A stretch of 20,028 bases of DNA from a virus: positions 1 to 20,028 of IMG/VR virus record IMGVR_UViG_3300001589_000287. One strand, 5' to 3'. The notes below the pieces were generated by a model. The model was not told the DNA's origin, searched no databases, and saw nothing but the letters and a program-made list of their open reading frames with translations. Below are positions 1-17,822 of the stretch, in pieces. A program made the translations under genes and the position numbers. How positions within the stretch are numbered: position 1 is the stretch's first letter; each line of letters starts with the position of its first letter.

Positions 1-3000
1 GTTCTTAACGTCTGGTCAGTCCCTTGCTCTAATTCTAAGTACAGTCCGCTTTCAGTCGCAATGTGGTCGTGAGTGACTGGCTCTATGGAGTCTACCCTTG
101 CTGGGTCAACCCGAACAAAGTTAGCCCCCTGAGTCATCGTCGCAAACCTTTTGATCTCCGGCATGACCTCCCAGTCTGCTTCTGCAACAGCCTGTGTGCC
201 CCCTGCACATGGCGCACCAATCTCTAATCTTACTGGAGCATACTCTGCACCCTGTATGTATTTGCCGTCATGCCCCCCTATTGGAACTCCTGTTTCAGCA
301 AGAATGTTAATTCCGTAGTCTGTGTCCCACCCAGCGTTCTCAATAATCACATCAACCAGTTGACCATCAGAAACAACTCCTTGTGCAGTTGCTCCCTCGA
401 CGTTTGGCACAGTTATGATCGGTGCCTCTCTGTAGCCAGAGCCACCGTTTGTCACAACAGTTCCAGTTAACGATGCGTTTGGCTCGTCGCCATCACCATC
501 ATACTCGTACAGGTTTCCGTCAACTCCACCAAGCAGTATGGTGTTAATACGCTGTGCATCGGGCCTGCCGGTGCATGCGGCAGTCATGCTATTAGGGTAA
601 CTCTCTGTCCACCAACTCTGTGCTTGAATGTCATAGCACAATGCCATAGCAGGCGTATCAGTACCAATAACCTTAGTCGTGCAGAAGAATCTAAGAATGT
701 GTGTACGAGGGTCAGTCTGTAGGAAGAAGGTTTCTCTCTTAGAGAAGTCTATGAGTTCACCAACAAAGTAGTCTCTAACGGGAAGGCTGATGTCATTAAC
801 TTCACCGTTTCGAGACATTGCATAAATTCCTGACTCGTCAGCAGAGTAAAGAATGTTTTCATGAATGTCCCAACAACGCTGATGAAGCGTGCCCCGGTGA
901 CTCATCATTTGTATAGAGGCATCAAGGGATGGGTCTGTATTGTAAGTCAATGCATATGTATGCGTGTGTTGCATTGCTAGGAGCATGGAGCCGAAAGGAA
1001 CGAGTGCGGTAATCACATCGTTAGACTTTTGATTAGACTGGATTGGTAGTTCGTTGACATCTGGTACGCTTTCAAATTCGTCAAACTCGCTGTAAAACAA
1101 CGTGTTGACATCCTTTCCGCTAGTAGACACAGCCATGAACAACCTGTCTTGAAAGGCTACGGCAACTGCCATGTCTTTGCGAGGCTGGCCGAAACGAAAG
1201 GCATTCACGCCTCCGTTAGGCAGGACTACTGGGAGTGCAGCGTAGTTCGGCCTGTCGGGATCAAACAGTTCCTCGTCAGTAAGGGTGTCTTCTCCAACAA
1301 TTTCAACATTATTGTCCGATGGTTTTCCGTAAGCCTCAACTCGGTAAAAGACTAGCGACTGGTCGGAACTTGTTCTCCACAGTTCTACCATGTCGCACCT
1401 GCTAGAAGGTTCTGCACCCTCTAGAATCCAGTCCATCTTTGATGCGTGGCTTCTTTCTGCTGTCGGGCCTGCATCAATATCTGCTATAGGAGATAGATCG
1501 CTGTACGCAACAGGCTTCTTAGGATCACGGACGGTTATGCTCGCTATAACTCTTCCGCTCTTAACCTGCAACTGCCCGCCGTTAGTAAACTCTAGCGTTG
1601 CGGGAAGTTGCCCGCTAGGAATAACAATGCCTGTTCCGGTTATGGGATTGGAGACAGGCCAATCAAAAGGAAGGATATAAAGTTGACCGTCAGTCCCAAG
1701 TTTTGCATACGCATTTGCAACTGGCACATAACCTAAGTCAGAGAACGCCCACTTCTTAGTGTCGTAAACATCCTCCGTTGCTGTGGTTCCGCTAGCAGAA
1801 TCAAAGCCCGTAACAAAGGTTCTCTTTTGGTAAATTACAAGATCACCATCGGCCTGCATTATCAGGGCAAACTCATTGTTCTCGCTATATATGGTTGTGC
1901 CAGAAGCAATACTGTAACTTGTAGTTGCTGTGGAACTGCCCAGTATTTTTGATCCAGAAGAATTGTTAACAAATGGAGTTGACCAATAAATCTTATAACT
2001 TTCAGGCAAGTTGATAATTTCTTCGCTTAATTCAAGTTGATCTTTTACAACACTTTTAATTCTAGTGAAGTCTGCCAGTTCTGGGCTTTCAAGCAACATT
2101 CCCGCTTCGAGGTCTGTTACGTCTTCAACAGTAAGCATCGTTGAAGACTCGCCTCTTTGAGCAGTAATAGTTTTTATTACTTGCTCCGATCTGTCAGCGT
2201 AACGATAGGCACATCGATACTTGCCTCTCATCGTAGGTCGCATGACAGGAGTTAAGTCCGCTGCTCTTGCTAGCGTGTACAACTCGGGATTAGTGTTGTA
2301 TGACTGACCACTGTCTAATATGGTTAACGAGTCGATGCGACCGTTTTTCATCACAGGATCGACTTTTAGGCCGTAGCCAGTACCCTCATGCCTAACCAAT
2401 ACATTCGGTTTAGAACGATAGTTATTACCTTTATTGTAAATTGTAAAGCCAGTGATGTTATTGTTTGTTGCGGCCTGCAACGTAGCAATTAGTCCCGCAG
2501 TCCACGCAATTGCTTGCCCGACTACGTTGGCGGTGGCCCCTATTACCCTCTTACGCAACTCAACTGTGCCCACATCTCCACTACTGTATCCATCTCCAGT
2601 TATTCCGACTACGCTTGGATTTATTAAAGAATGCGGTGGCCCGTGTGGAGTGTTCGCATCTGCCACTGTAGTCTTTACATTAAACTCAACGTATCGGTTG
2701 TTACCGGAATACGCCGCATGCGCCGCTGGCTTAGTTAGTTCTGTGTCTGCCGTATTGTGGTCATGTATTTGAGCGTAAGAGTTTGCTTGATAAAGTCTGA
2801 AGACAAACTGAGTATTCTGTCCCCACCCGCTACCAGCATTTATGATTTGACATGCAGTAGTTTCAATCTCATTCGTAATTCCATCCCTAGGAAGATCGAC
2901 AACCGGCCTTGGAACGCCGGACGAAGGAGAGTACCAAGGCAATCTGTTGCCTTGTCCGTGTCTTCCTGTTTCTTTATTGGCAGTAGGTATGCACTGGTCG

Positions 3001-5243
3001 CCTTCTACTATCCAAGTGTCAGGGCAATCAACCAGATTAATCCTAACCTTTGGAGGTGTCGCCTCGGGTAACTCTACCTGATCTTCGTATTCAGTTACGA
3101 TGGACGCACGCTCAGTACTAGTTACTTTCTTTGCTTGCTTGTGAGGCTTTAAATCAAACTCGATATACCTAGCACCGCCACTGTCTTGCTGGACAGTAAC
3201 GTCTGCTCTTGTCCATTGCGAAAGAGAACTAGACCGAACGCCTGTGTTGAACCACACGCTTAGTTTAGAGTAATCAGGCCAGTAAACGTCAGTCTTGCGA
3301 CCGCCGGTAGTTCCCGAGAAACCATGCACGAACGAACTGCCGCTTGCTTGAAGGCCACCATAACTTGCGTTTTCTGATGAACCCGGTCTATCAAAGTCTG
3401 ATCCAGACCAGTACTCCCCATATAAATATTCTGTTAAAGTGGTTTGTCGAGTCCAGCGACCGCCTTCACCCCCAATAATATTAAAGTGTTTATTGAGGCC
3501 AGTGTCACTGACCCCCTTGGAACTTTCCCCGCTTGTGTTAACAGCGTATCCTAAAGGAAGAGGAGAGAACACTAAAGTAGCATGTGCATCTTGCCCTTTT
3601 ACCGATGAAGCAGTCGTAAGAGGAATATTGGCAAAGTACCTTCTTGACGAACTTTCGTAAATAGCGGCAGCGTAACCAGACCCTTGGTTTGTTGTGGCGA
3701 CAAGGACTTTGTTGCTTACTGGGTCATGAAACGCATCTGTGCTTGAGGCCGCAGGTTTTGTTGTGCGGTTGGATGTGAAACTGCCGCCCACATGTATCGT
3801 TTTGTCTACGGTTATCTGTTTGGTATTAGCATCAACAGAAAGTACTTTTGCTTCTGCCGCATTAAAGGAAGTGTAGTTTGCAGTGTACAAATTAGTGGTA
3901 GCAGTCGGCATTGTATTCCCCGCAACAGGAATGCAATTTATATCAGGAGTGAATTTAACTATGTCGCCAACAGAGATTCCATTTACATCTTCCAATGAAA
4001 GTCCTACTCGATGGGACGAGTCGCTTTGCACAACGAAAGAATATAGATAGACTCCGTAAGTTGCTGATTCGTCGGCTTGGTTGGCAAAGAAAGAATCAAG
4101 CGTGACTGTTTTGTTTACCGTATCTATTCCAGTAATAGTCTTTAACGGGTAGGCTGTGCCGGTGAAGGAGGTAATAGCAGTCCCGTTAAAGTTATAGATA
4201 TAAAGCCTAACCTGCATCCCTACCAATAAGCCATCAACCCTCTCAAGTGGTATCGGATAGCCAACGTTAGGAGTGATGGTTCCGGTGTGTGCCCATTTAT
4301 ACATCCATGCAGATAGGGTGTGGTCGGTTTCCGAAAGAGGTGCTGTGTAAGCAATCTGCTGATTTTCTGTCCCATCCTTGTTGCCGTATGTTTCGTTGGA
4401 GCCGCAACCAGTGCCGGTGATTGAACCAGCACTGGTATCGTCAAAGCCGGAAATTGTCGCAGCACTTCCCGACCTTATACCGATTGCACGAAACCCAGAA
4501 CCTACGTCACTCAAATCTGCTTTGATTTCTGGAGGGGTCTTATACCCTGCCCCTCCATCAATTATGTCTACCCCAACAACATTACCACGCTGAACCAAGG
4601 CTTTTAATTTAGCGGGGCGTATGGGGTCTCCCTCAGTTACCGTCAGGTTTGGGGGCGAGTTGTAGCCACCTCCTCCAAGGTCTACATCAACCTGCTCTAT
4701 AAAAAAACCTTCTCCTGACGGCGTGATCTTGGGCATTGACAATGGTGCAGGCATGCCCATGTCAATTGCTAAGGTAGACAGGAGGTCTGGTCGGTACAGC
4801 CTTGGCTCGACACCATGACCGTAAAAGATAAATATTCTTCCATGCCTGTCTTCTGCAAGACTGAAGTTATTAATAGAAGTGCCATTAGGGGCAATTTCTA
4901 GTTCGTCAATAACCCTTGCTTGGTCGTCCTTAATCCTTTTGACCTGCCACCTATGCTCAAGTGGAAATACAGATTGACCAATCTCGTCTGCACTAAGTAC
5001 TTTTTCTACAAGAATCTTTTGCAACCAGAGAAAGTCAGATGGTGTGCCTAGTATGGTAGATCGACGATATAATCCAAATATGGTCTCATCGTCATACTCT
5101 CCATATATCTTTTTAATTCCCGGTCGTGCTATAAGCATGCCCGGTCTGCGAGACTGAAGGTTATTAAGTACACGCAGTTCGCCCGGTCGCAGCAAATACT
5201 GCGATGCATCTTCGTTGTACCCTAGCCATTGCCTAATCTTCAT
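1..5243 (-). CDS. Giant tail nozzle / stabilization-like protein, 3' end missing
   Basis: A single stop-free frame runs from an ATG at 5243 to the left edge, giving at least 1747 codons with the C-terminus outside the window. The ATG overlaps the stop of the upstream adaptor gene as ATGA, and no strong Shine-Dalgarno site is seen, so coupled translation is likely. Residues about 1360-1480 look like the beta-propeller nozzle proteins of short-tailed phages (T7 gp12, P22 gp10): a QDRLFMAVS segment (M1370), then FYSEFDEF, then ITALVPFG (F1417) and LLAMQHTHTYALTY. A later GGVDGNLYEYD fits the same fold. Glycine-tyrosine modules of about 40 residues occur in pairs around Y194/Y234, Y942/Y982 and Y1604/Y1643. 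T7 gp12 is about 800 residues, so this protein is enlarged by inserted beta-rich modules. Its place after the adaptor supports the role. A large fibre-like tail protein is the alternative. The existence of the gene is near certain; the role is inferred. Confidence 0.8.
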   Translation of the reverse strand, partial: MKIRQWLGYNEDASQYLLRPGELRVLNNLQSRRPGMLIARPGIKKIYGEYDDETIFGLYRRSTILGTPSDFLWLQKILVEKVLSADEIGQSVFPLEHRWQVKRIKDDQARVIDELEIAPNGTSINNFSLAEDRHGRIFIFYGHGVEPRLYRPDLLSTLAIDMGMPAPLSMPKITPSGEGFFIEQVDVDLGGGGYNSPPNLTVTEGDPIRPAKLKALVQRGNVVGVDIIDGGAGYKTPPEIKADLSDVGSGFRAIGIRSGSAATISGFDDTSAGSITGTGCGSNETYGNKDGTENQQIAYTAPLSETDHTLSAWMYKWAHTGTITPNVGYPIPLERVDGLLVGMQVRLYIYNFNGTAITSFTGTAYPLKTITGIDTVNKTVTLDSFFANQADESATYGVYLYSFVVQSDSSHRVGLSLEDVNGISVGDIVKFTPDINCIPVAGNTMPTATTNLYTANYTSFNAAEAKVLSVDANTKQITVDKTIHVGGSFTSNRTTKPAASSTDAFHDPVSNKVLVATTNQGSGYAAAIYESSSRRYFANIPLTTASSVKGQDAHATLVFSPLPLGYAVNTSGESSKGVSDTGLNKHFNIIGGEGGRWTRQTTLTEYLYGEYWSGSDFDRPGSSENASYGGLQASGSSFVHGFSGTTGGRKTDVYWPDYSKLSVWFNTGVRSSSLSQWTRADVTVQQDSGGARYIEFDLKPHKQAKKVTSTERASIVTEYEDQVELPEATPPKVRINLVDCPDTWIVEGDQCIPTANKETGRHGQGNRLPWYSPSSGVPRPVVDLPRDGITNEIETTACQIINAGSGWGQNTQFVFRLYQANSYAQIHDHNTADTELTKPAAHAAYSGNNRYVEFNVKTTVADANTPHGPPHSLINPSVVGITGDGYSSGDVGTVELRKRVIGATANVVGQAIAWTAGLIATLQAATNNNITGFTIYNKGNNYRSKPNVLVRHEGTGYGLKVDPVMKNGRIDSLTILDSGQSYNTNPELYTLARAADLTPVMRPTMRGKYRCAYRYADRSEQVIKTITAQRGESSTMLTVEDVTDLEAGMLLESPELADFTRIKSVVKDQLELSEEIINLPESYKIYWSTPFVNNSSGSKILGSSTATTSYSIASGTTIYSENNEFALIMQADGDLVIYQKRTFVTGFDSASGTTATEDVYDTKKWAFSDLGYVPVANAYAKLGTDGQLYILPFDWPVSNPITGTGIVIPSGQLPATLEFTNGGQLQVKSGRVIASITVRDPKKPVAYSDLSPIADIDAGPTAERSHASKMDWILEGAEPSSRCDMVELWRTSSDQSLVFYRVEAYGKPSDNNVEIVGEDTLTDEELFDPDRPNYAALPVVLPNGGVNAFRFGQPRKDMAVAVAFQDRLFMAVSTSGKDVNTLFYSEFDEFESVPDVNELPIQSNQKSNDVITALVPFGSMLLAMQHTHTYALTYNTDPSLDASIQMMSHRGTLHQRCWDIHENILYSADESGIYAMSRNGEVNDISLPVRDYFVGELIDFSKRETFFLQTDPRTHILRFFCTTKVIGTDTPAMALCYDIQAQSWWTESYPNSMTAACTGRPDAQRINTILLGGVDGNLYEYDGDGDEPNASLTGTVVTNGGSGYREAPIITVPNVEGATAQGVVSDGQLVDVIIENAGWDTDYGINILAETGVPIGGHDGKYIQGAEYAPVRLEIGAPCAGGTQAVAEADWEVMPEIKRFATMTQGANFVRVDPARVDSIEPVTHDHIATESGLYLELEQGTDQTLR

Positions 5244-6715
5244 GCTGTATCTTGCCCAAGGTCTGAGTGCCAGCCCATAGTTCTTGGAGAACCTCCGGGT
5301 GAATAAGCCCCGCTCGGCAATCCACTGAGCGGCGTTACGACATCATTCTCCATAGCGATTCTCAAGTCTCTGTTAAAAGTATTCATGGCAAGCCCGTAAT
5401 CCTTTCCGGCAAGACGGGCATACCACATTTCGCAAGCAGAGAGGATCGCTGTGTACATTTGCGGAGAAGCGTTGATTACATCCGTAATTGCATATTTCGT
5501 TAACGCTGGCAATGCCGTATTAATGTCGTCGTAATCATTTGTTACATAAGGATTGTTTGTGTTTGCATCGACAGGGGTAGACGATGGAGAACTTACATCC
5601 ACTTCGTTCGCATCAAAGTCTAAAGGCTCGTATGGAACGCCGGTTACCCCACGGCGTTGATACACGGAAGTGCTTGTGAGACTTAGGCTCGTAGTAGACG
5701 ACCAGCCTTCGACCCTTCGCTCCATTATGAATGGGACTGTTGATCCCAGTGCATCAGCAGGCATGCCGTTTGAACCAAACCTTATGAACGTCCCGAGACA
5801 ATCTTGCGGGAAGTTTGTGCCTACGCCAGTAACCCTAACGTCAACGCTGCGTAGCACAAGGTTTGTTGCAGTAGCCGTAGCGTTTGCGTCTACCACAACT
5901 GATCCAGCAGACACACTGAGGATTGTTACTTCGCTTGTAGGGAAGTTACTTATTACTACACGCATTCCGACAACTAAGCCGGTAGGGTTTGCAACTGCTA
6001 TTGTGCTGCTGCCGCTGGTTACGCTCCCAGTAGTCGCAACCTTTCCAACCGTTACTGTGCCTTGCCTGCAAAGTTTTTCATACCCCATGTACTTGATTGG
6101 CTTTGGAAGTGTCCGGTATGTGTACGACACCCTTATCGGGTTATGCGTGGCTCCAACAAATCGTATCTGGTATCTATCAGGACTTACATCACTTCGCATT
6201 ACCGTATAGAAGTAAGGCTCTCCAGAACCTCTGTGGTTTACTTCTAGACGTTGCCACTCTTGTGGACTTATCCGGCAATGCAAGGTTCCGACAGTTTGGG
6301 TTGACAGGGTGTCTAAATCTTTAAGGTCATATGGCAAGTCGTAGTATTGCTGCGGAGTTACAGTCAGATTAGTTGCAGAAGATTTTGCTATTCGATCTAC
6401 AACAACGCTCCCATCACGCACCTGAACAATCCTTACAGGGTCATCAAATCCAGCGACATCAACTATTCTGCCGGGGACAAACCCAGCAACACTTGCTACA
6501 TTGATGACATTACTGCCAGTTGTAACTGCCCCTACAGTAGTTACCTTAGAAGTCGAAAAGGAATTGGTTGACGTATGCCATAGCCAATTCTTGCATTGCA
6601 TGACCTCTCTGACCCCATGTAAAACAGCGTGACGAACAGCAGTATGTTCTCCATCCTGTGCGCCGCCTCCATTACTTGCCAAAAGGAAGGCTACAATATC
6701 TTGTGCTGTTTGCAT
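5240..6715 (-). CDS. Tail adaptor (head-tail connector), T7 gp11 / P22 gp4-like position
   Basis: This 491-aa protein probably forms the ring that joins portal and nozzle. The N-terminus (residues about 1-50) is helical and ends in a tryptophan-rich CKNWLWHT segment, as in adaptor proteins of short-tailed phages. The middle is beta-rich and the C-terminus (about 410-465) returns to helices with a CEMWYARLAGKD segment. Two related modules interrupt the protein at residues 59-120 and 222-290. Both carry TTG..., a V-rich strand, GSVVVD and ATNL, and they look like a duplicated beta domain. The ATG overlaps the upstream stop by one base (TAATG), with an AAAAGG ribosome site eight bases away; its own stop overlaps the nozzle start by four bases. 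The fold call rests on order and motif style, not on a search. Confidence 0.72.
   Translation of the reverse strand: MQTAQDIVAFLLASNGGGAQDGEHTAVRHAVLHGVREVMQCKNWLWHTSTNSFSTSKVTTVGAVTTGSNVINVASVAGFVPGRIVDVAGFDDPVRIVQVRDGSVVVDRIAKSSATNLTVTPQQYYDLPYDLKDLDTLSTQTVGTLHCRISPQEWQRLEVNHRGSGEPYFYTVMRSDVSPDRYQIRFVGATHNPIRVSYTYRTLPKPIKYMGYEKLCRQGTVTVGKVATTGSVTSGSSTIAVANPTGLVVGMRVVISNFPTSEVTILSVSAGSVVVDANATATATNLVLRSVDVRVTGVGTNFPQDCLGTFIRFGSNGMPADALGSTVPFIMERRVEGWSSTTSLSLTSTSVYQRRGVTGVPYEPLDFDANEVDVSSPSSTPVDANTNNPYVTNDYDDINTALPALTKYAITDVINASPQMYTAILSACEMWYARLAGKDYGLAMNTFNRDLRIAMENDVVTPLSGLPSGAYSPGGSPRTMGWHSDLGQDTA
5846..6052 (-). repeat. Second copy of the internal beta module in the adaptor gene
   Basis: Codes for adaptor residues 222-290. 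It shares the pattern TTGS...I.VA...G.V.G..V...F...V.I..V..GSVVVD..A...ATNL with residues 59-120. The resemblance is at protein level; I did not find an exact nucleotide repeat, so the duplication looks old. Confidence 0.6.
6356..6541 (-). repeat. First copy of the internal beta module in the adaptor gene
   Basis: Codes for adaptor residues 59-120, including TTGSNVINVA, GSVVVD (102-107) and ATNL (114-117). It matches the later module at residues 222-290. It probably decorates the outside of the adaptor ring, since the adaptor core would be discontinuous around it. Confidence 0.6.
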
Positions 6716-7248
6716 TAGTTACGCCTTTTGCGACCGTACTTCTCTTGCACCATCTCTTTGAGTTCACCCTGTTTCATGGTCGGATGGCTCTTCTTCTCTA
6801 CCTTCATCATTTCTTTAGTTAGATTTTCGCTTAGTGGAGGAGATTTTGGCCTTGGCATTTTGCGGCCTTTGTGATTTACTGCCCCTTCTACTGTGAGGTT
6901 TCTTTTTCTTGCGACATTCGTCACATCGTTCGCACTGTCGATCCACGCTGCCGGGTCTTGTACCCCTCGCTTGTCTGCCAGACCCGCTGCGTAATACTTT
7001 CCGTTGGGATTGATACCTGCCCGTCTTGCTAGGGTTATCATGTTTTGAGCATGATCCTTCGGCATCTTGTCGAACTGTTCGTTGTTGTACCGGCCTTGCA
7101 TCAGGCTCCTGTCTGTTCCCTTTAAACCGGGTGCGATTTGCAGGGCGCACATTTCTGCGAACCTTGGACTTTGCCCGTCTTTTATCATCTTGTCGTAGTG
7201 CCGCTGCACTTCTCTGCTTGCGCACTCTATTTCGATTGGGTAACTCAT
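6715..7248 (-). CDS. Conserved-looking phage protein of unknown function, basic C-terminus
   Basis: A 177-aa soluble protein that I cannot assign. The N-terminal half has well-spaced hydrophobic and charged residues (REVQRHYDKMIKDG, FAEMCALQ) and looks like a folded helical domain. The segment NGKYYAAGLADKRG.QDPAAWID is distinctive. The last 45 residues are strongly basic and end in KYGRKRRN, which suggests nucleic-acid or capsid contact. The ATG has an AGAGG ribosome site 5-6 bases upstream and the stop overlaps the adaptor start (TAATG). The endonuclease VII-like frame is also open across the first 434 bases of this gene. Composition favours this frame as the functional one there. Lying between portal and adaptor, it may be a minor virion or head-completion protein, but that is only inference. 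Confidence 0.75.
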   Translation of the reverse strand: MSYPIEIECASREVQRHYDKMIKDGQSPRFAEMCALQIAPGLKGTDRSLMQGRYNNEQFDKMPKDHAQNMITLARRAGINPNGKYYAAGLADKRGVQDPAAWIDSANDVTNVARKRNLTVEGAVNHKGRKMPRPKSPPLSENLTKEMMKVEKKSHPTMKQGELKEMVQEKYGRKRRN

Positions 7249-7528
7249 TTTTTCCTCTTAAGTAACTTAATGCTCTTTCGACTCCTGCGATATCATCACC
7301 GAGAGTACCTATGGCTCGGTTGCATCCAATACATAGATGGCCCCTGACTCTTCCTGTCTTATGACAATGATCTATACACTTGCCTTTCCTCTTGTTGCAA
7401 ACATGACATAAGCCACCATTACTTTCAGTTAATAAGTACCATTCTGTGACCGTAAGCCGGTATCTAGTCCACAGATTGTGTGCCCGCTTTTGAGTAGTAT
7501 GCGGGTACTTTCTCCGTGACCGTGACAT
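6815..7528 (-). CDS. Endonuclease VII-like (His-Me/HNH) nuclease with an out-of-frame tail
   Basis: The first 93 residues match the recombination endonuclease VII family. A zinc-binding quartet is visible as C41..C44 and C66..C69, with the catalytic DHCH at 53-56, followed by TGRVRGHLC and GCNRAIGTLGDD. Relatives resolve branched DNA (T4 gp49) or act as small free-standing homing endonucleases; this short form next to the portal suits either. It begins five bases after the portal stop. Family members of this size usually end near residue 90-130, but here the frame stays open for another 144 residues that lie over the next gene in a different frame. That tail is almost entirely R, K, S, Q and N and looks like the shadow of the 177-aa gene. 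The catalytic domain is confident; whether the tail matters is unknown. Confidence 0.72.
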   Translation of the reverse strand: MSRSRRKYPHTTQKRAHNLWTRYRLTVTEWYLLTESNGGLCHVCNKRKGKCIDHCHKTGRVRGHLCIGCNRAIGTLGDDIAGVERALSYLRGKNELPNRNRVRKQRSAAALRQDDKRRAKSKVRRNVRPANRTRFKGNRQEPDARPVQQRTVRQDAEGSCSKHDNPSKTGRYQSQRKVLRSGSGRQARGTRPGSVDRQCERCDECRKKKKPHSRRGSKSQRPQNAKAKISSTKRKSN

Positions 7529-7533
7529 AATTA

Positions 7534-9576
7534 CTACGTTTGCAACTCAGGTGGAACTTGTGGCGGTGGTGGCGGTGGCGGTGGCGGCTCCTGACTTCCC
7601 CCGGCCCCCTGTGCTTCCGGCCCAGCGGGGGAGGGAGGGCTAGGCGGCGCATCAGGAGGGGGGGGAGGAGCAGGAGGTGGAAGCAAGTAGCCGCTAGCGT
7701 TTATGTCGAGAGAGTTAGCCCAATCTTTCATTAATGAGTTAAACGGTTCCGTAATACCTGAGCCTGCTAACTGGCTGAGAATAGGCCCGAGTGTTTGTAC
7801 AGCCATCTGCATTTGTTCAACACGGCTCGATTTATTTGGTTTTCGGGCAGACCCGGCTTCAACTCGGAAGAGCAACTCTCGGGTTAAAGCCACTATGTCT
7901 CTTTTAGAAATAGTCTGATACCAAGCAGCAGCACCCATTGCACCGAGAACTGGCTGAACATCTTGAGGTTCAAGAAGCCATCTTGCCGCAAGTGCTTCCC
8001 TTCTAGCAAGAAGACTCATGCAGTCCTCTAACTCATTCGCCATGTTATCTGGCCGAATAGAAATGTTTTCGTTTTTAATTTGTGCTTCAGCAGCACTTCG
8101 GAATTGCGCACGAGTGTAACCAAATACTAATTCCGACAAACCAGTACGCTGTGCAAACTGATCTAGAATTGCTTGGATAATATCCCACAGGTCTTTGTTT
8201 ACCTGTGGCATCTGGAACACAGACACAACGTCCTCAACTCGCCTGCCGAGCAACTCAGACAGTTCAATTATCTTGAACCCGCCCTCTGAAGGAGCAAGCA
8301 ACTTGTCTTTAATATCTTGGTCGGCTGCCTTTTGAACAGCAACAACTGTTTCGCAACTAGTTGCAATACGTGTAGCCAGAAACGAGAAGCACCAGTTAAG
8401 TAGCCTGAGTTCACCAATTGCTGGTTTGATATGGCTAATCGGCCAAGAATGTCCGGGCTTGCGATGAAACGCGAGCATCGTAAAGGGCCATCCTTGCGGG
8501 TCTGCGTAGAACGGTATAGGCCACGATACCCTTGATGTAAGGCTTGGTGGCAATCCGGTCTCATCAACTTCTTCTTCAAGAATAGAAGGCGGCATATTCA
8601 GAGGATAAGGAACACCTTCGCATACTACTAAGTAGCAATACCTGCCGACAGAATCAAAGAATCCCTTATTTTCTTTAGGGCTATCCTTGAACCGATCACC
8701 CATTCCAGTCTTGCTCCATATCTTATAGAACGTAACGAGATTATTAGTGGTGTCCCTCTTCTTCCTTCTGCCCTTGTACTCCTTACCCAGAGTGCTTGTG
8801 TTGTCGTCAATATGCTTTCGCAGGGCTTCTTCTGGTATTCCGTAAGTTGCGGCTACCTCCTGCACTGGCCTGCAACATTTCTTTGCACACCAAAGCATGT
8901 CGTCTTCATTATCAAAATCAGGATCAATGAGAAGGTTATCTACTGTGTCATAAAACGAACCAACCATCTTCATGGCTGGCTGCTCTTCGTTAGCAGACAC
9001 ATCCACAGAAACCATCTCTGTCCAGAATACACCGGCACCTTTTATCATTGCCTCGTTGACAACTTTACGTGCCTGCTTCTTTAGGTCTAGTTCAACAGGA
9101 CTCCAGTTTAAGTAACTGCTTAGGAGTTTTGCTGCATTTTGCCTTGACTGCCTTTCGTCTTCTTCGTTCTTGACAGTCTGCATAATCGCCATCTGATCAG
9201 GTGACGGCTGACCCATTTCACCTGAAGGCTCATCTAAGCCAAGTTGACCAAGGTCTGTGTCGTGGGCATCCATTACCGTCACTGTACGCACAGGGTTTCT
9301 GTGGTATATGACGCTCCCAAACAAATCGACTAACTCAAAGACCTTGTTCAACTGCATGCGGAACGCGGGGGGTGCAATGTTTGAATTGTACCCTCGCTCA
9401 CCCCGTGAATACGAGTCCTTCCACATCCAGTTGTGATCGCCGTCATAGAACTGACTTGCTTCTTTAGCAACGTCATCAAACGGTTTTTTATATTTCTGAG
9501 CAGCCTTGAGTTTTTTAACCCAAGTTGTCACGCACTGCTTAAGTGGGTTGTTACTTGGTAGGCTTTGTTCGTCCAC
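7534..9576 (-). CDS. Portal protein
   Basis: This 680-aa protein would form the twelve-subunit channel at the capsid vertex through which DNA is packaged and ejected. Supporting evidence: length in the range of short-tailed-phage portals, an N-terminal segment with FYDGDHNWMWKDSY and the hydrophobic FELVDLFGSVIYHRNPV, a long mixed central region, and a late helical region (about 470-600) typical of portal stem and wing. It sits one gene after the large terminase. The start codon is GTG, with GGGGTGA just upstream, and overlaps the end of the preceding gene by 26 bases. Residues 633-680 are an unusual tail of proline runs (nine in a row near the end) mixed with A, G, S and E. The assignment rests on context and general sequence character; a search should confirm it easily. 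Confidence 0.85.
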   Translation of the reverse strand: MDEQSLPSNNPLKQCVTTWVKKLKAAQKYKKPFDDVAKEASQFYDGDHNWMWKDSYSRGERGYNSNIAPPAFRMQLNKVFELVDLFGSVIYHRNPVRTVTVMDAHDTDLGQLGLDEPSGEMGQPSPDQMAIMQTVKNEEDERQSRQNAAKLLSSYLNWSPVELDLKKQARKVVNEAMIKGAGVFWTEMVSVDVSANEEQPAMKMVGSFYDTVDNLLIDPDFDNEDDMLWCAKKCCRPVQEVAATYGIPEEALRKHIDDNTSTLGKEYKGRRKKRDTTNNLVTFYKIWSKTGMGDRFKDSPKENKGFFDSVGRYCYLVVCEGVPYPLNMPPSILEEEVDETGLPPSLTSRVSWPIPFYADPQGWPFTMLAFHRKPGHSWPISHIKPAIGELRLLNWCFSFLATRIATSCETVVAVQKAADQDIKDKLLAPSEGGFKIIELSELLGRRVEDVVSVFQMPQVNKDLWDIIQAILDQFAQRTGLSELVFGYTRAQFRSAAEAQIKNENISIRPDNMANELEDCMSLLARREALAARWLLEPQDVQPVLGAMGAAAWYQTISKRDIVALTRELLFRVEAGSARKPNKSSRVEQMQMAVQTLGPILSQLAGSGITEPFNSLMKDWANSLDINASGYLLPPPAPPPPPDAPPSPPSPAGPEAQGAGGSQEPPPPPPPPPQVPPELQT
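7537..7680 (-). repeat. Proline-codon low-complexity tract, portal C-terminus
   Basis: On the coding strand this is a run of CCA/CCG/CCC/CCT codons that encodes portal residues 633-680, including runs of five and nine prolines separated by a G/A/S/E-rich spacer. Such tracts change length easily by slippage. Confidence 0.8.
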
Positions 9577-9877: not shown

Positions 9878-11573
9878 CATTTCCTCCTTGCGGCCCTAAG
9901 TAAACATGACCGGGGTCACCTTGCCCCTGTCTCTTCTTTCTTTCATGCTGCCATTTTACCCACCAAGGCTCCTTCTCGCCGTTACGAATTGGTGGTGCAT
10001 GGTAATGTGGGCGATATGCACACAAATACTCAAGACATTGGCACAAATGTACCTCGCCTTTTGCATTTGGCTTGTCCGTGACAATAGGCGTACCAGATAT
10101 GTAATTGACCAGTTTCCTGTATCTTTTGAGTTCCCTGACTAAATCCGGGCAGGAGTTTTCTAAGACTCTGAGAGTAGGCTTACCTTCCGGCTTAATGTGT
10201 AGCGATACTCGGGTAGACTCGGTACGTGCTTGTATGTCATCGCAGCCCGCCAAAAAACTAGCCCCAGTAATCTCGGATCGCACCCCATTCTTAACAAGTT
10301 GTTCTGTGTACTGCTCTGAAGGCAATCTACCACTACCGAGGTCTCTGAGCCTCGCACCATGAGCATCGATTATAAACGCATGGAAGTGCCAATCACGAAC
10401 CTTTTCGGTAAACCTCTTTCCGAATATTGTGGCGTTGCACTGGCGTAGGTACAATTGATCATAGCACAGGACGAACGATTCGTCGGGGGGAACAGCCGCA
10501 AATAGGATTGCAGTGACTGCGTGTCCGGGGTCAATGACGGCGTACCTCGTCCACTCATGAGGTATCATGCCGTTAGGCAACTCCTCTTTAGACATCCCGT
10601 GTATCCGCATATCAAAGTTTGGGTACATCAGTATGCTGTCCGTGACGAAGTCACCCTCGGCACGCATCCTCAATATGTCGTCGCCTAGAGCGGCCCATCT
10701 CTCAATACTCTTTTTCTTTTCTTCTTGATCCAAGTATGGGTTGTCGAGGAATCGTAACTTAAACTGTTGTATGTTTGATTCTTTACCTAGGTCTGCTGTC
10801 GAGGCTTCCGCTCGTTCCTTAAGACCAAGCAGTGCATTGTTTGTACTGTGCGGCATAGCAGACCAACACATCATTCCTTTGCGGTCAACTATACGAGCCT
10901 GCATTTCAGGCACCCACCTCTCGTCCGAAATATCTTCATCGATATGGACGCGATTACAATTGAAGCCTTGTACAGGCTCGCCTTCGCTAGAGAAGAAATA
11001 TATCTGCCAGCCATTGTGCAATGTGCAACGCTGCATGTAGTTAGCACTACGCAACAACCATGACGTATTTTTAATCATACGTTTGGGGATTAGTGCTGGT
11101 GCTGGCTTTGCTTCGTTCTTTCGTTCTTCATCTGTTTCAGGATTAAACGCCCTCCACTCCCCACTCTTCTCGTCTTTTATAATCTTGAACGCACCTTCAT
11201 TGAATAAGTAAGGTACTGCGACCAGTCCGATATGTTTCCAGTCTTTGCCAACTACTACCAGAATGCCGTCTTTCTCTGGGTATTTCTTGAAAGGGTCTTG
11301 GCCCGTAACAGCCCTAGCATCTTCAACAAAAGTGCATAACGATTTGCCTGATCTATTACCACCGATGACAAGTACTTCACTTGCTTTTGTTCTGTGTACC
11401 TCTGCCTGATTTGGATTTGGCTGGTACAACTTCAGTGCCTCTACCTGCCTCTCCTTCAGTTCCTGCTGTACGTCCTTCAAATGATCCATCTGATGCTGGG
11501 TCATACTCGATTGAACGGACACCTTCTTCGGCTGCACCTTCGGATGTTTCTTCTGTCGTTTCCGCTGTGGCAT
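9864..11573 (-). CDS. terL: Terminase large subunit (packaging ATPase-nuclease)
   Basis: This 569-aa protein is the motor that cuts concatemeric DNA and pumps it through the portal. Walker A is GGNRSGKS at 71-78. Walker B with catalytic glutamate is RVHIDE at 208-213 (DEDI follows), and the coupling motif is probably WSAMPHST at 237-244. The nuclease half shows the first acidic site in AVIDPG (D348) and the second in IIDAHG (D403). The third acidic site, usually in a D-A-L-R-Y-like motif, corresponds to QCLEYLCAY (512-520), so the usual Asp seems replaced. The start at 11573 has AAGGAG nine bases upstream. It makes the first 65 codons overlap the upstream gene by 197 bases in another frame. 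That N-terminus is very basic (PQRKRQKKHPK). Confidence 0.95.
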   Translation of the reverse strand: MPQRKRQKKHPKVQPKKVSVQSSMTQHQMDHLKDVQQELKERQVEALKLYQPNPNQAEVHRTKASEVLVIGGNRSGKSLCTFVEDARAVTGQDPFKKYPEKDGILVVVGKDWKHIGLVAVPYLFNEGAFKIIKDEKSGEWRAFNPETDEERKNEAKPAPALIPKRMIKNTSWLLRSANYMQRCTLHNGWQIYFFSSEGEPVQGFNCNRVHIDEDISDERWVPEMQARIVDRKGMMCWSAMPHSTNNALLGLKERAEASTADLGKESNIQQFKLRFLDNPYLDQEEKKKSIERWAALGDDILRMRAEGDFVTDSILMYPNFDMRIHGMSKEELPNGMIPHEWTRYAVIDPGHAVTAILFAAVPPDESFVLCYDQLYLRQCNATIFGKRFTEKVRDWHFHAFIIDAHGARLRDLGSGRLPSEQYTEQLVKNGVRSEITGASFLAGCDDIQARTESTRVSLHIKPEGKPTLRVLENSCPDLVRELKRYRKLVNYISGTPIVTDKPNAKGEVHLCQCLEYLCAYRPHYHAPPIRNGEKEPWWVKWQHERKKRQGQGDPGHVYLGPQGGNDEYS

Positions 11574-12084
11574 CGATAGTCACTCCTTTGAAATGCATGG
11601 CTGCCTCGTTCAGGCGAGCGTCAAGTTCTTGCTCTAGTTCATCTTCACTCCAGAACTGTAGTGGCTTCTTAGTGCCGCCCGCTTCTACATTCCTAGTTAC
11701 CATTCGGCACATGGTTTCAAGCAACTTGCTCCTTTGGCTGCTACCCGGCGGGCTGTCCCAATATTGCTTGACCATAACAGAGGAAAATCCTGAGACTCCC
11801 CCGAAGTACGACATTACCTTCTCTACCACCTCTGCGGTGTGGGGTATGTTGTTGCCGCCTTTAGAAATTGTAGCAAGAAACACATCTACGCCAGACTGCT
11901 CTATCTCTTGCAGTGCCAACTTCTTATTAAGTTTGTTTTCTTCAATCCTTTTCTGCTTTGTAATGTACTCACACTTCTTACAGACATTGCTATACGACTC
12001 CTTGCCGTCCCTCGTTCGATGACGGAAGTTATCAATGTCTATATCTTTTTCTTCAGAGCATTTAATACAAAGTTTCTTTTTCAT
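11377..12084 (-). CDS. Zinc-finger protein in the small-terminase position
   Basis: A 235-aa protein directly upstream of the large terminase. Residues 1-40 form a four-cysteine finger (C6-x2-C9 ... C35-x2-C38), a type often found at the N-terminus of phage DNA-binding proteins. A helical middle follows (KGGNNIPHTAEVVEKVMSYFGG, then a WDSPPGSS turn and a further helix), then FWSEDELEQELDARLNEAA. The last 60 residues are acidic and low in complexity. Position and DNA-binding finger suggest a small terminase or terminase accessory protein, but no homology is proven. I chose the ATG at 12084, which starts right at the finger. A GTG at 12144 would add 20 residues encoded by a strong hairpin, and neither start has a clear ribosome site. 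The 3' end overlaps terL by 197 bases. Confidence 0.7.
   Translation of the reverse strand: MKKKLCIKCSEEKDIDIDNFRHRTRDGKESYSNVCKKCEYITKQKRIEENKLNKKLALQEIEQSGVDVFLATISKGGNNIPHTAEVVEKVMSYFGGVSGFSSVMVKQYWDSPPGSSQRSKLLETMCRMVTRNVEAGGTKKPLQFWSEDELEQELDARLNEAAMHFKGVTIDATAETTEETSEGAAEEGVRSIEYDPASDGSFEGRTAGTEGEAGRGTEVVPAKSKSGRGTQNKSK
11583..11588 (-). promoter_or_regulatory. Ribosome binding site that fixes the terL start
   Basis: AAGGAG on the coding strand, nine bases before the ATG at 11573 and inside the upstream gene. Later in-frame ATGs (11504, 11489) have no comparable site, so this supports the long overlap between the two genes. Confidence 0.65.
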
Positions 12085-12099
12085 ATATATATATGCTAA

Positions 12100-12126
12100 C
12101 AGCCCACAGGGGGTGCCTGCGGGCTG
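12100..12126 (-). promoter_or_regulatory. Strong intercistronic hairpin before the packaging module
   Basis: On the coding strand CAGCCCGCAGG and CCTGTGGGCTG pair over 11 bp (one G-U) around the five-base loop CACCC. It lies between the stop of the putative decoration gene and the ATG at 12084. What follows is TTAGCATATATATATATG, not a U-run, so a full rho-independent terminator is unlikely. An attenuator, RNA-processing site or mRNA stabiliser that separates the abundant capsid messages from terminase messages is more likely. Confidence 0.6.
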
Positions 12127-12154
12127 CTTTGCATATCCTATCACGGACTGTTCA

Positions 12155-15077: not shown

Positions 15078-17822
15078 TTAAATAAATGCCGGGACTTGAA
15101 AACCTCCCGCCTTTGTCCTTGGAGCAAGCACTGAGTTTTTCTTTTTTTCAGGCAGCAGGTCATCAAGAACTCCATACTGCTTACCTTGTGCGGCGGTTCT
15201 TTTCTTCTCTATTTCTTCTCTCTTCTGGTCATAACTAGGATCACTTGGCTTGACTCCAGTGACTGGGTCTGTTGCCGAGGCATCGCCCGTGAAGAACGCA
15301 GGGCCTTCTTTTGCTATGCCGCCAATGGCAGGTATACCACCCTCAATGATCATGTCTTCAGGCCCAAAGGCACCTAGTGCCGCACCTTTTAGACCATAAG
15401 GAATTGCTTTACTGGCTCCCTTGGCAAACAGTCCACCCGCTCCACCTAGACCAGCAAAGGCAACTGTTGATGGGTCTGTCCCTATTCCTTCTACTGCTTC
15501 TGGCACAGCCTTCTGGAATCCAGTCGCCGCTATCCTCATGTCTTCCTTGTCACCTAAATCAAACGGCTCGCCTGTCGTAAACTCGATCAATGGATTCTTA
15601 TTCAATACTGCATGAGTTCCATCAGATATTGCAGTAGCGAATTGTTGATTGAAATCTTCATTGGATTCCTTTTGGCCTGCATTAAACTCTTTAATCGTCT
15701 GTGCGTACTCTTCCTGCGTTAAGCCTTCAGGCATACGTCCAGTTGGCCCACGGTCTTGAGACCTACGCTGCTCTGCGTTTATTTGTCTAATCCTATCTAC
15801 CGGCATACCCGTTTCTTGTGCTATGCGACTTATCTCTAGTGGACGGAACGCCGACTCAAAGCCTGAAGTTATTCGTCCAAACGGATTCATGTTCCTTTGA
15901 TTGCCGTATACAGAATCGATAGTATTATTGAAACTATCTGTAGCGTAACGATTAAACCTTGGTTTGCCCTTGGGGTCATAGATTGACCTGTGGTCTTCAT
16001 TCAATGTACTAGGAATGTTTGACCTTCCGTACAATTCGTTTGCGTAGCCAAACCTTTTCGCTGGCTCGTCTTCCTCTGCAATGGGAAGTTGCTGTTGCTG
16101 CATACTATGAATCCCACCGATGCCAATTCCACTTGGTGCGTCCCGTGTAAACTGTGGCCTTGACGCTCCCTCCGCAGAATAAAACGAATCTTTATTACCG
16201 GCTGCTGCCAAGTCTACGCCACGCAGATATTGATGGTTCCTAAAGGCATTCTCATTCATGTAGTAGTCAGGGTTTTCTCCGGTTCGTTCTGCTATAGCGT
16301 TTGCTTCTTCTTCTGTTCTGAAAGAAGGGAGGCTGTAGTCGCCATCAAAATGATCTTGAGAAATAGTTGCTACATCGCTTATAAACCTAGGGCCTCCGGT
16401 CTGCAAGCCTCCCAATGTTCTCTCCCATGAACTAGTCATATCTGCCTCTATGTCTTTGCCGTCCGCTTGCAGTACATCTTCAGCCATAACAGCGAGGGCT
16501 ATGTTCATGCCATCTTCACGCTGGGAATCAAACCACTCCATCACCCCTTCGCCTTGATCTGGAAACTTTTCCACCATCCTTCTAGCGATGTCATCTCTAT
16601 AGCGTGGGTCTACAAGTGTCTCTGTTGCGTAGGTATGCATATTGGCTAGGTACTGCTGACCTGCTTCTGAATCCAGTCCGGGCTGGGAGTATTGAATTGC
16701 TGGTTCCTGACCTACGTCTTGTAACTCCTCTGCCAAAGCAGTCGATCTGTCGATTGGGTCAGTCACCTTAGAGATATTGTCTACTGATGACTCAATAATA
16801 TTTCCGCTCGCAGCGTCTGTTGCCCCTGCTGCTGCACCGCCAACTCCATATGTCCTTAGTTTCTTAATTAAATCTTCTGAACCGGGAAACATAACGTAGT
16901 TTCTTGACTCACCAGAATTGTTACTAGCCATCAAAGTATCATCTAGATACGTGCTTCCGGGTACACCTCCCTTCTGCAAATGCTCGGCTACACGGCGATT
17001 AGCCACTAACTCCCTAGAGCCAAGCGTATTCATAAAGTGATCTGCCCTATGCACGCCTTCTGGTACTGGAGTCATTGGGGGAAGAAACTCTTCGTTTGAG
17101 AAAGCCAGAATGCCATCGCCGGTTGCAGCACGCCCTTTCCTGTCGATGAAATCCCTAGTCTCTTTCGGCAAGTCCATGCTGGTCAACTTGTCCATGACTT
17201 GGTCGGACTGACCTTCTTGCAGTTGCATCAGTTGATCCATCTGCACATCAAGGTCAACTTCGCTCATTGTTCCCCGCATCGGGGAGAACTCAAGTTCTGC
17301 TCCACCCGGAAGGTTTAACTCATCTCTTATCTGCTGGAGCCTCTGTATATGATTCTTGTCGCCTGCGGCAGAAGCATCGTTCATTGCAATATCAATGCGT
17401 TCGTTCAAGAACTGCGGAAAGTCCTCTGTTGGCAGACCTCGAAGTCTCCTTTCCTCGACCATTGCGTCTTCGACTAACTGAGACCGAACAGTATCAAGGT
17501 CATACTGATCTTTAGGTAGATTGTGGTCTGGCGAGTAATCCATTCGCGGGACTTCAACAACCTTATTGCCAACCTTGATGCGTACCATCTGGCCTTCTTC
17601 GCCACTTAACGGGCGATATCCACCAGCAATAGCAGGATCGCCGCTGAAGTAGTGGCCCACGCCATGCATATACCCGCCCTTACCCGGCATATTAGGATCA
17701 AACTGATCGAACCTTGCGGGAGAACCGTGGTACGCACGGAGTGGCGACGTAGTTGTAGGCACTGGAGCCTTACCAGCCATGATCAAGTTAAGTAAAGTAG
17801 AAGCACTCTTGCCCTTACTCAT
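15078..17822 (-). CDS. Large virion-associated protein with N-terminal ADP-ribosyltransferase-like domain
   Basis: A 914-aa protein. Residues 28-323 match the pattern of ADP-ribosyltransferases found in phage polyvalent proteins, PARP-like with an H-Y-E triad. H32 lies in YHGSPARFDQFDP, Y58 in GVGHYFSGDPAIAGGYR, and E305 in SGESRNYVMF. Two further marks agree: MSEVDLDVQMDQLMQLQEGQSDQV (186-209, in two parts, like the family's strand followed by L-D-x-P-L-x-E-Q), and GGVPGSTYLDD (285-295). Residues 345-760 are hydrophilic and largely unassigned. About 784-840 are glycine/alanine-rich with hydrophobic stretches that could enter a membrane. The end is lysine-rich. Its place just before the scaffold suggests a protein packed in the capsid and ejected with DNA, as T4 Alt is. 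The start overlaps the upstream stop by eight bases. Activity and target are unknown. Confidence 0.78.
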   Translation of the reverse strand: MSKGKSASTLLNLIMAGKAPVPTTTSPLRAYHGSPARFDQFDPNMPGKGGYMHGVGHYFSGDPAIAGGYRPLSGEEGQMVRIKVGNKVVEVPRMDYSPDHNLPKDQYDLDTVRSQLVEDAMVEERRLRGLPTEDFPQFLNERIDIAMNDASAAGDKNHIQRLQQIRDELNLPGGAELEFSPMRGTMSEVDLDVQMDQLMQLQEGQSDQVMDKLTSMDLPKETRDFIDRKGRAATGDGILAFSNEEFLPPMTPVPEGVHRADHFMNTLGSRELVANRRVAEHLQKGGVPGSTYLDDTLMASNNSGESRNYVMFPGSEDLIKKLRTYGVGGAAAGATDAASGNIIESSVDNISKVTDPIDRSTALAEELQDVGQEPAIQYSQPGLDSEAGQQYLANMHTYATETLVDPRYRDDIARRMVEKFPDQGEGVMEWFDSQREDGMNIALAVMAEDVLQADGKDIEADMTSSWERTLGGLQTGGPRFISDVATISQDHFDGDYSLPSFRTEEEANAIAERTGENPDYYMNENAFRNHQYLRGVDLAAAGNKDSFYSAEGASRPQFTRDAPSGIGIGGIHSMQQQQLPIAEEDEPAKRFGYANELYGRSNIPSTLNEDHRSIYDPKGKPRFNRYATDSFNNTIDSVYGNQRNMNPFGRITSGFESAFRPLEISRIAQETGMPVDRIRQINAEQRRSQDRGPTGRMPEGLTQEEYAQTIKEFNAGQKESNEDFNQQFATAISDGTHAVLNKNPLIEFTTGEPFDLGDKEDMRIAATGFQKAVPEAVEGIGTDPSTVAFAGLGGAGGLFAKGASKAIPYGLKGAALGAFGPEDMIIEGGIPAIGGIAKEGPAFFTGDASATDPVTGVKPSDPSYDQKREEIEKKRTAAQGKQYGVLDDLLPEKKKNSVLAPRTKAGGFQVPAFI

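Follow-up and report, generated by a model that had tools for sequence, protein, structure and literature searches.

A predicted nozzle gene of a metagenomic short-tailed phage, with paired glycine-tyrosine repeats, a lectin-like insert and relatives that encode its N-terminus separately

The closest described counterparts of the gene examined here are the nozzles of short-tailed phages. T7 gp12 is a propeller gate bound to the adaptor, with a beta-barrel tip domain that leaves the propeller via a loop (PMC6702177), and the nozzle of SU10, gp17 (PDB 7z47), has four immunoglobulin-like (Ig-like) domains between propeller blades 2 and 3 (PMC9509320). We compared with them a long open reading frame (ORF) at one end of a 20-kb IMG/VR virus record, IMGVR_UViG_3300001589_000287 (20,028 nucleotides, analysed at full length and called the window below; its protein is labelled WIN). 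Judged by the predicted fold of a relative and by sequence profiles, the gene is a phage nozzle of the T7 gp12 / SU10 gp17 / P22 gp10 type, as an earlier note made from the letters alone had supposed. We consider it quite likely that this short-tailed-phage nozzle carries an inserted arm of Ig-like domains, each made of a pair of glycine-tyrosine (GY) motifs, together with an optional lectin, and that its N-terminus, fused here, is a separate gene in relatives.

SU10 gp17 resembles the window gene in the predicted fold of a relative, in the SU10-like adaptor next door and in having Ig-like domains inserted into the propeller; the window protein differs in its GY motifs, its lectin insert and a much longer insertion. 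T7 gp12 shares the adaptor-bound propeller gate with a tip domain on a loop, but it is only ~790 residues long, its tip is a beta-barrel, and no GY pairs are reported in the available part of its description. The nozzle of cyanophage A4 (PDB 9k09_U, deposited as tail tubular protein B) is the top structural match of the relative's big ORF, yet it is one chain of ~1015 residues, and the GY profile has no match in it at E up to 1.

Three features that mark a podovirus nozzle were found: a propeller and platform fold (in a relative), portal and adaptor neighbours, and similarity to a solved nozzle (by profile). The structure prediction used the big ORF of L028 at full length. This relative, of the short type (described below), is 42% identical to the window protein in the conserved core, and the model has a predicted local distance difference test score (pLDDT) of 76 with a 27-row alignment. 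In a Foldseek search of the PDB its first 20 matches were all chains of phage tail complexes, labelled as nozzle for some rows only, and expectation values (E) were 1.9e-14 for A4, 7e-13 for SU10, 4e-11 for Pa223 and 1.3e-8 for T7; P22 stood at rank 23 (E 3.9e-6). VIA alignments of the model reached Z 15-18 over 338-405 residues for VP1, Pa223, GP4, SU10, P22, Pan3 and A4. In BFVD the best match was an unnamed 778-residue protein (E 1.6e-31), and among the others some carried the names tail tube B or P22 gp10-like, though most were unnamed. At the level of sequence, a profile of 27 relatives (A3) finds the Pa223 tail chain 9nwi_Y, deposited as 'capsid and scaffold protein', at E 1.7e-5; the single window sequence matched no solved nozzle in the PDB, and a Pfam search with the entire window nozzle gave no match at E up to 1. 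The gene order is portal, a 177-aa gene, adaptor and nozzle. The portal gene lies upstream at 7534-9576 (PHROG 156, E 3e-6), SU10_adaptor matches for the window, L002, L003 and L012 range from E 1.4e-3 to 1.2e-5, short of the curated cut-off, and an adaptor gene was found in 30 of the 32 short-type loci examined.

Three points count against this identification. Template modelling scores (TM-scores) of the nozzle rows in Foldseek are 0.22-0.29 by query length, with root-mean-square deviations of 13-44, and because they are so low we take L028 to match nozzles by domain, not over the whole chain. Cellular propellers also reach VIA Z 14.8-16 (~235 residues), so that a propeller alone is not specific to nozzles. 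The model of the window protein (residues 590-1747) had a mean pLDDT of 42.6 and was not used, and the evidence from fold thus comes from the relative L028 only.

The minus-strand frame of the window gene is open at the window edge. In its nearest relative, L002, which is 85% identical over the shared part, the complete gene has 2266 codons (2266 aa), and the window gene would therefore be without ~520 C-terminal residues. The statement that the protein is more than twice as long as T7 gp12 holds: the gp12 chain has 790 residues. The window's phage is probably short-tailed and represented in metagenomes only, with this gene product as its DNA exit gate. Cultured phages gave no tblastn match for the window nozzle (E 1e-5) and phage records gave none for its major capsid, and by these two genes relatedness of the tail genes to the Kuravirus/SU10 group was not found. 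To Arthrobacter phages the window terminase has only 24% identity over 56%, and short-type L034 found five weak matches among cultured phages, each covering <=14% of L034. The features of the gene, with the adaptor gene beside it, are as follows.

3..5243, minus strand: nozzle gene, of which 1747 codons are visible; its 3' end lies beyond the window edge; fold taken from a relative
4863..5243, minus strand: N-terminal nozzle part, residues 1-127, homologous to a separate ~90-aa gene of short-type relatives; probably platform edge and first propeller blade
4713..4862, minus strand: putative next propeller segment, residues 128-177, which opens the big ORF in split relatives
4458..4712, minus strand: GY pair 1, residues 178-262 (Y194/Y234), a probable Ig-like domain
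3474..4457, minus strand: variable region, residues 263-590
2508..2867, minus strand: half motifs GxGW807 and GxGY886, residues 793-912, weak for Y886
2250..2471, minus strand: GY pair 2, residues 925-998 (Y942/Y982), with a profile match to the other pairs
1983..2177, minus strand: a second kind of beta-rich module, residues 1023-1087, possibly akin to the adaptor repeats
1530..2000, minus strand: beta-prism II (bulb, B-type) lectin-like insert, residues 1082-1238, with QADGDLVIY in the first repeat at 1130-1138
480..1529, minus strand: conserved nozzle core, residues 1239-1588, which leads into the predicted beta-propeller and then forms most of it
264..479, minus strand: GY pair 3, residues 1589-1660 (Y1604 and W1639), with a profile match to the other pairs
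3..263, minus strand: start of the C-terminal part, residues 1661-1747, putatively platform, cut by the window edge
5240..6715, minus strand: adaptor gene, SU10_adaptor-like, with two inserted repeats, directly upstream and overlapping the nozzle gene by stop and start

The strict pattern GxGY...P.[VI], which the earlier note had seen as recurring in pairs, occurs at two places only (231 and 1601), against a shuffle mean of 0.0045, and none of 2000 shuffles reaches two. Three looser patterns, written after the motifs were known, occur six times each where 0.3-0.8 are expected, a number equalled by none or one of 2000 shuffles; one of these patterns includes among its six a position, 326, outside every pair. 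The motifs themselves are real, and Y194, Y234, Y886, Y942, Y982 and Y1604 are where they had been placed. Y1643 varies among relatives and is not a motif residue; the second motif of the third pair is the invariant G1638 with W1639 (Y in L004), 35 residues past Y1604. The further motif at Y886 is present as a half motif without the proline, and it matches the pair profiles poorly (hhalign E 0.01 to 0.6). The invariant GxGW at W807, which the earlier note did not list, does better, with E 9e-6 against pair 2, and the W807 and Y886 half motifs match each other at E 1.3e-4; together they may be a fourth, degenerate pair.

Profiles made from alignments of relatives over 180-262, 925-1000 and 1590-1655 match mutually with hhalign E 1.2e-12, 2.4e-8 and 2.7e-9 (single-comparison values); the lectin region and two controls from the protein, 20-100 and 600-680, did not match the GY pairs (hhalign E 0.055 to 0.88). 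By this profile comparison the three paired regions of the window protein are homologous. The pair profile also finds three pairs in 12 of 12 window-type (long-type) ORFs that span all three places, in line with the earlier proposal of one duplicated domain type at three sites. These twelve include the window and the near-copies L009/L012 and L025/L026, and L009 and L025, for example, contributed no sequences to the profile, whose background at the loosest threshold was nine chance matches in 940 shuffled sequences. The truncated L013, L014 and L027 show two pairs, and both pieces of L008 show none. Most short-type nozzles have GY pairs at the corresponding places; the exceptions are L034, without pair 2, and L032, L033, L038, L045 and L046, with an incomplete or weak pair 2. 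In the L035 group there are four GY pairs, although pair 3 is missing.

A known Pfam repeat was considered for the GY motif and rejected: Pfam offered no convincing match for any of 20 pair sequences, scattered matches alone being seen (best E 0.0055). PHROG 701 was matched by 19 of the 20, with other matches to families of baseplate wedge, head closure and tail fibre proteins, and judged by these matches many phage virion families carry the repeat. Searching the PDB with a GY-pair profile gave one sensible match, the tailspike Dpo31 (E 0.049). Both motifs align over the whole pair, within a segment (residues 434-536) that is a protruding Ig-like domain, D3*, by crystallography (PDB 28lx; PMC13317679); hhalign with the chosen segment gave E 1.6e-6, and the pair profile scored against the whole of Dpo31 beats 1000 of 1000 shuffles. 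The motifs are 44 residues apart there, against 35-40 in the three pairs of the window protein, and lie together in one inserted Ig-like domain. The Dpo31 domain differs in being a single copy on a beta-helix depolymerase, a carrier protein unrelated to nozzles. In the predicted structure of L028, pair 1 spans six strands, each half-repeat contributing three, and one more strand precedes them (pLDDT 83-92). Because of the D3* alignment and this strand pattern, we read the 40-residue module as half of an Ig-like domain, each GY pair being most likely one such domain; the modules of the earlier note are duplicated, as it said, but the unit is probably only half a domain. Weighing against this, the Dpo31 match reached only E 0.05 in the unbiased search of the PDB. 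A phmmer search of the PDB with the most GY-rich pair (L035) found no match.

We then compared the parts of the chain in length and identity over nine rows, the window included and the partial L014 left out. The core 1239-1588 has 350 residues in all nine rows and 76% mean identity (L002 left out). The three GY pairs measure 84-85, 72-75 and 72-78 residues and are 49-58% identical. The most variable parts are residues 263-590 (178-328 residues, 34% mean identity) and the lectin site 1082-1238 (8-158 residues, 24%). The nozzle region that the earlier note had drawn at about 1360-1480 does belong to a nozzle and is larger, comprising the conserved block 1239-1588 and the N-terminus. Between the N-terminal segments and this block lie ~1070 inserted residues that hold pairs 1 and 2, and by chain order and analogy this insertion probably occupies the place of SU10's Ig-like domains, between propeller blades 2 and 3. 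The suggestion that the modules extend the tail tip is thus reasonable for pairs 1 and 2; pair 3 follows the propeller.

Since they occur in all twelve spanning ORFs at a nearly constant length, the GY pairs look like part of the nozzle core rather than variable receptor binders. The earlier note's other suggestion, that the GY-pair domains themselves bind a receptor or sugar, is less well supported, and we regard it as unlikely: D3* has a distant DALI similarity to Ig-like sugar-binding domains, as reported in PMC13317679, and the PHROG families that bear the repeat include tail fibre and baseplate proteins, but a DALI Z of 2.8-2.9, under 3, is weak, GY repeats are also found in head closure and baseplate wedge families that are not known as receptor binders, and the pairs hold their length and identity where other parts vary. 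The lectin is a better candidate for binding than the GY modules, because these are conserved and residues 263-590 and the lectin site vary most. The great length of the window nozzle, its adhesin-like lectin and its variable middle region could also be explained by a recent fusion of a nozzle with a tail-fibre gene, in which the GY and lectin parts would be fibre. We judge this highly unlikely: most short-type nozzles (~790-1070 aa) carry GY pairs at matching places, so that the pairs are not tied to the lengthening, and putative fibre genes, named by eye, lie elsewhere in the same loci (e.g. L012 18712-19863).

Beyond what the earlier note had described, residues 1082-1238 hold an insert that is, by sequence profile, a bulb-lectin (beta-prism II) domain. 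A profile of four inserts found pyocin L1 in the PDB at E 1.2e-12, followed by plant agglutinins from 4e-5, and the L003 insert alone found pyocin L1 at E 7e-10. The likeness to pyocin L1 and the plant mannose-binding agglutinins (B-lectin, PF01453) consists in this profile match over the insert and in a three-repeat layout seen by eye; the window insert differs in that the sugar-binding motif is not conserved and in that it sits in a nozzle, not in a bacteriocin or plant lectin. On the other side, the window lectin by itself reached pyocin L1 only at E 0.11 (a second match at 0.25) and had no Pfam match, so that it is assigned largely through its alignment with L003 and L004, and Pfam B-lectin was matched by L003 only, at E 1.7e-3, below the cut-off. 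The window, L002, L003 (with its copy L015) and L004 carry the insert, as does L008 in broken frames. The insert is missing, with intact flanks, in nine distinct relatives (L005, L007, L009, L011, L012, L013, L014, L025 and L027), in which the anchor-to-anchor distance is exactly 86 residues, as against 212-236 with the lectin; L006 has a different 103-residue insert without lectin match.

In solved B-lectins the motif QxDxNxVxY is the sugar site. No exact copy occurs in the window protein, L002, L003 or L004, which counts against binding; there is one near-copy, QADGDLVIY (N to D), in the window protein and L002 only. Because the motif is absent we class the insert as a B-lectin domain by type of sequence, not as a sugar-binding B-lectin. 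The absence in all four proteins tested, with that single near-copy, favours the explanation that the insert is purely structural, a beta-prism spacer or interface that has lost sugar binding, and we put this at somewhat short of an even chance: clean gain and loss at one site among similar phages is the behaviour of a host-range domain, and other surfaces of the beta-prism could bind.

The second departure from the earlier description is that the N-terminal part is a separate gene in relatives. In short-type relatives the big ORF begins at about window residue 127, and a small upstream ORF that overlaps or abuts it is homologous to the first ~90 residues of the window protein. All 42 short-type loci that have a nozzle core show this split; 41 are viral, and one, L070, comes from an assembly. 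If the ten exact duplicates are dropped, and with them L066, a repeat of L061, the figure is 31 of 31 distinct loci. Neither figure includes L069, which has no nozzle core, L071, in which the frames are broken, or L072, which by eye looks like a single chain. In L028, for instance, the stop-to-stop frames are adaptor 4162-5124, small gene 5125-5403 and nozzle 5399-8410. The earlier note had named homologues with the long frame split into separate genes as evidence that would speak against its repeated modules; the frame is indeed split in these relatives, at residue ~127 and not between modules. A small-gene profile built without long types finds the N-termini of long types at E 1e-5 to 9e-5. 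Most small genes were in this profile, and those that were not (L033, L034, L042, L051, L052, L061 and L070) score E 4e-25 or better, although the match in L033 is confined to the first 64 positions, ahead of extra residues. VIA alignments of the L028 big ORF begin at residues 83-89 of VP1, Pa223, P22 and Pan3 and at 112 of A4, and a profile of the N-terminal part had as its sole PDB match residues 24-80 of the A4 chain (E 0.039).

A sequencing error or a programmed frameshift could mimic such a pair of genes, all relatives then having one chain; the two ORFs overlap or lie within a few bases of each other, and broken frames do occur in L008 and in L071, whose nozzle is broken over several frames. 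We give this explanation next to no credence. The split recurs in every distinct locus, on many contigs; the frame of the big gene relative to the small one is +1 in 13, +2 in 17 and 0 in 1 of them, whereas a programmed shift should give a constant offset; the start candidates nearest the small-gene stop lie at -3 to +25 nt, and TGATG, TAATG or ATGA junctions stand at many big-gene starts. The varying offset and these junctions thus favour two coupled genes over a frameshift, and the small-gene ORF of L061, at 1238 codons with seven fn3 domains, argues likewise. Several results fit less well: the VIA starts disagree with the split point for GP4 (63) and for two of three SU10 rows (526; the third is 96), taken by itself, the N-terminal profile's match to A4 is weak, and the very distant relative L072 looks single-chain by eye.

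Of 17 window-type loci that have a nozzle core (copies counted), 14 show a fused N-terminus; of the remainder, L014 and L027 are without the 5' end, and L008 was scored as split by the script only, its frame being broken near 11.1 kb. The long fused type forms one clade of 13 rows in a quick unrooted tree of 45 rows, with 100 in the Shimodaira-Hasegawa-like approximate likelihood-ratio test (SH-aLRT). The tree excludes the near copies L012 and L026, the too-short L013, the short L008 piece and exact copies; rooting with L072 failed (a branch of 9.5 changes per site), and the N-terminal profile did not reach L072. The known single-chain nozzles, together with L072 as seen by eye, suggest that the split state is derived. 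Neither a split nozzle nor a nozzle lectin is mentioned in the literature surveyed, at the level of titles and abstract openings.

Some small genes are enlarged. In L061 (9-3725, plus strand) the small nozzle subunit is extended to those 1238 codons (Pfam fn3 E 2e-86), an extension that is, by its domain matches, an adhesin-like tail on a nozzle subunit. L033 (4220-5818) and L053 (3261-3968) have extra residues inside or behind the conserved domain, and those of L053 have no Pfam match. L070 and L071, split-type and damaged nozzle relatives, lie in two contigs of one Pirellulaceae assembly, a weak hint that Pirellulaceae are the host of relatives.

What the analysis shows are the relations between sequences, the order of genes, whether the nozzle is split or fused, whether the lectin is there and, by prediction, a nozzle-like fold in a relative. 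We infer the ring, the blade numbers, the arm geometry, the coupling and the glycan contact in the following account. The nozzle would form a ring below the adaptor, of six subunits if it follows solved nozzles, in which the beta-propellers, by analogy with SU10 and T7, would close the channel and gate the exit of DNA. The ~1070-residue insertion would be an arm of two GY-pair domains, the variable region and the bulb-lectin, reaching towards the host; the third GY-pair domain would come after the propeller. Each pair, most likely an Ig-like domain of two half-repeats of 35-44 residues, may serve as a rigid spacer or docking block. The lectin would be an optional add-on to the arm that may contact glycans of the host surface; the variable region is a further candidate for host contact. 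In short-type relatives, where the first ~90 residues are encoded by a gene of their own to which the main gene's start would be coupled, a second polypeptide would complete the propeller; in the window's clade the two are one chain. A bolder extension, which we find possible but doubtful, is that a large uncultivated phage clade builds the gate propeller from two chains, a first-blade subunit of ~90 residues and the main chain, the window clade being single-chain. The free end of the small subunit (with the seven fn3 domains of L061) and the main-chain arm (with the window lectin) would both be exchangeable platforms for host contact. If true, the nozzle itself, beyond the fibres, would carry receptor specificity.

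The analysis links a repeat of many phage virion families, one without a convincing Pfam match in any of 20 test sequences, to a solved Ig-like domain, and vague 'virion structural protein' annotations could therefore be read. It also offers a natural experiment, one tail gate made by one gene or two, with or without a lectin, and through this contrast the role of the nozzle in host specificity becomes testable.

Other features were noted in and around the window. The adaptor (5240-6715) has two copies of a ~64-residue beta-rich module that match each other at hhalign E 5e-11, and one copy possibly related to them lies in the nozzle at 1983-2177 on the minus strand (E 7.6e-5 and 2.9e-3); the adaptor has 491 aa in the window and 375 aa in L003. 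Between portal and adaptor, on the minus strand at 6815-7528, is an ORF like Recombination endonuclease VII (Pfam E 5e-18), the 3' half of which overlaps the 177-aa gene in a different frame. Just before the large terminase gene, the ORF at 11377-12144 (minus strand) begins with an endonuclease VII-like stretch (PHROG 1035, E 2.5e-6) and has no Pfam match; from its position it is possibly such a stretch fused to the small terminase. Lastly, a 914-aa protein encoded at 15078-17822 on the minus strand, upstream of a putative scaffold gene named by eye, resembles an ADP-ribosyltransferase at its N-terminus (ART-PolyVal E 2.9e-6, short of the curated cut-off) and is perhaps packaged in the virion.

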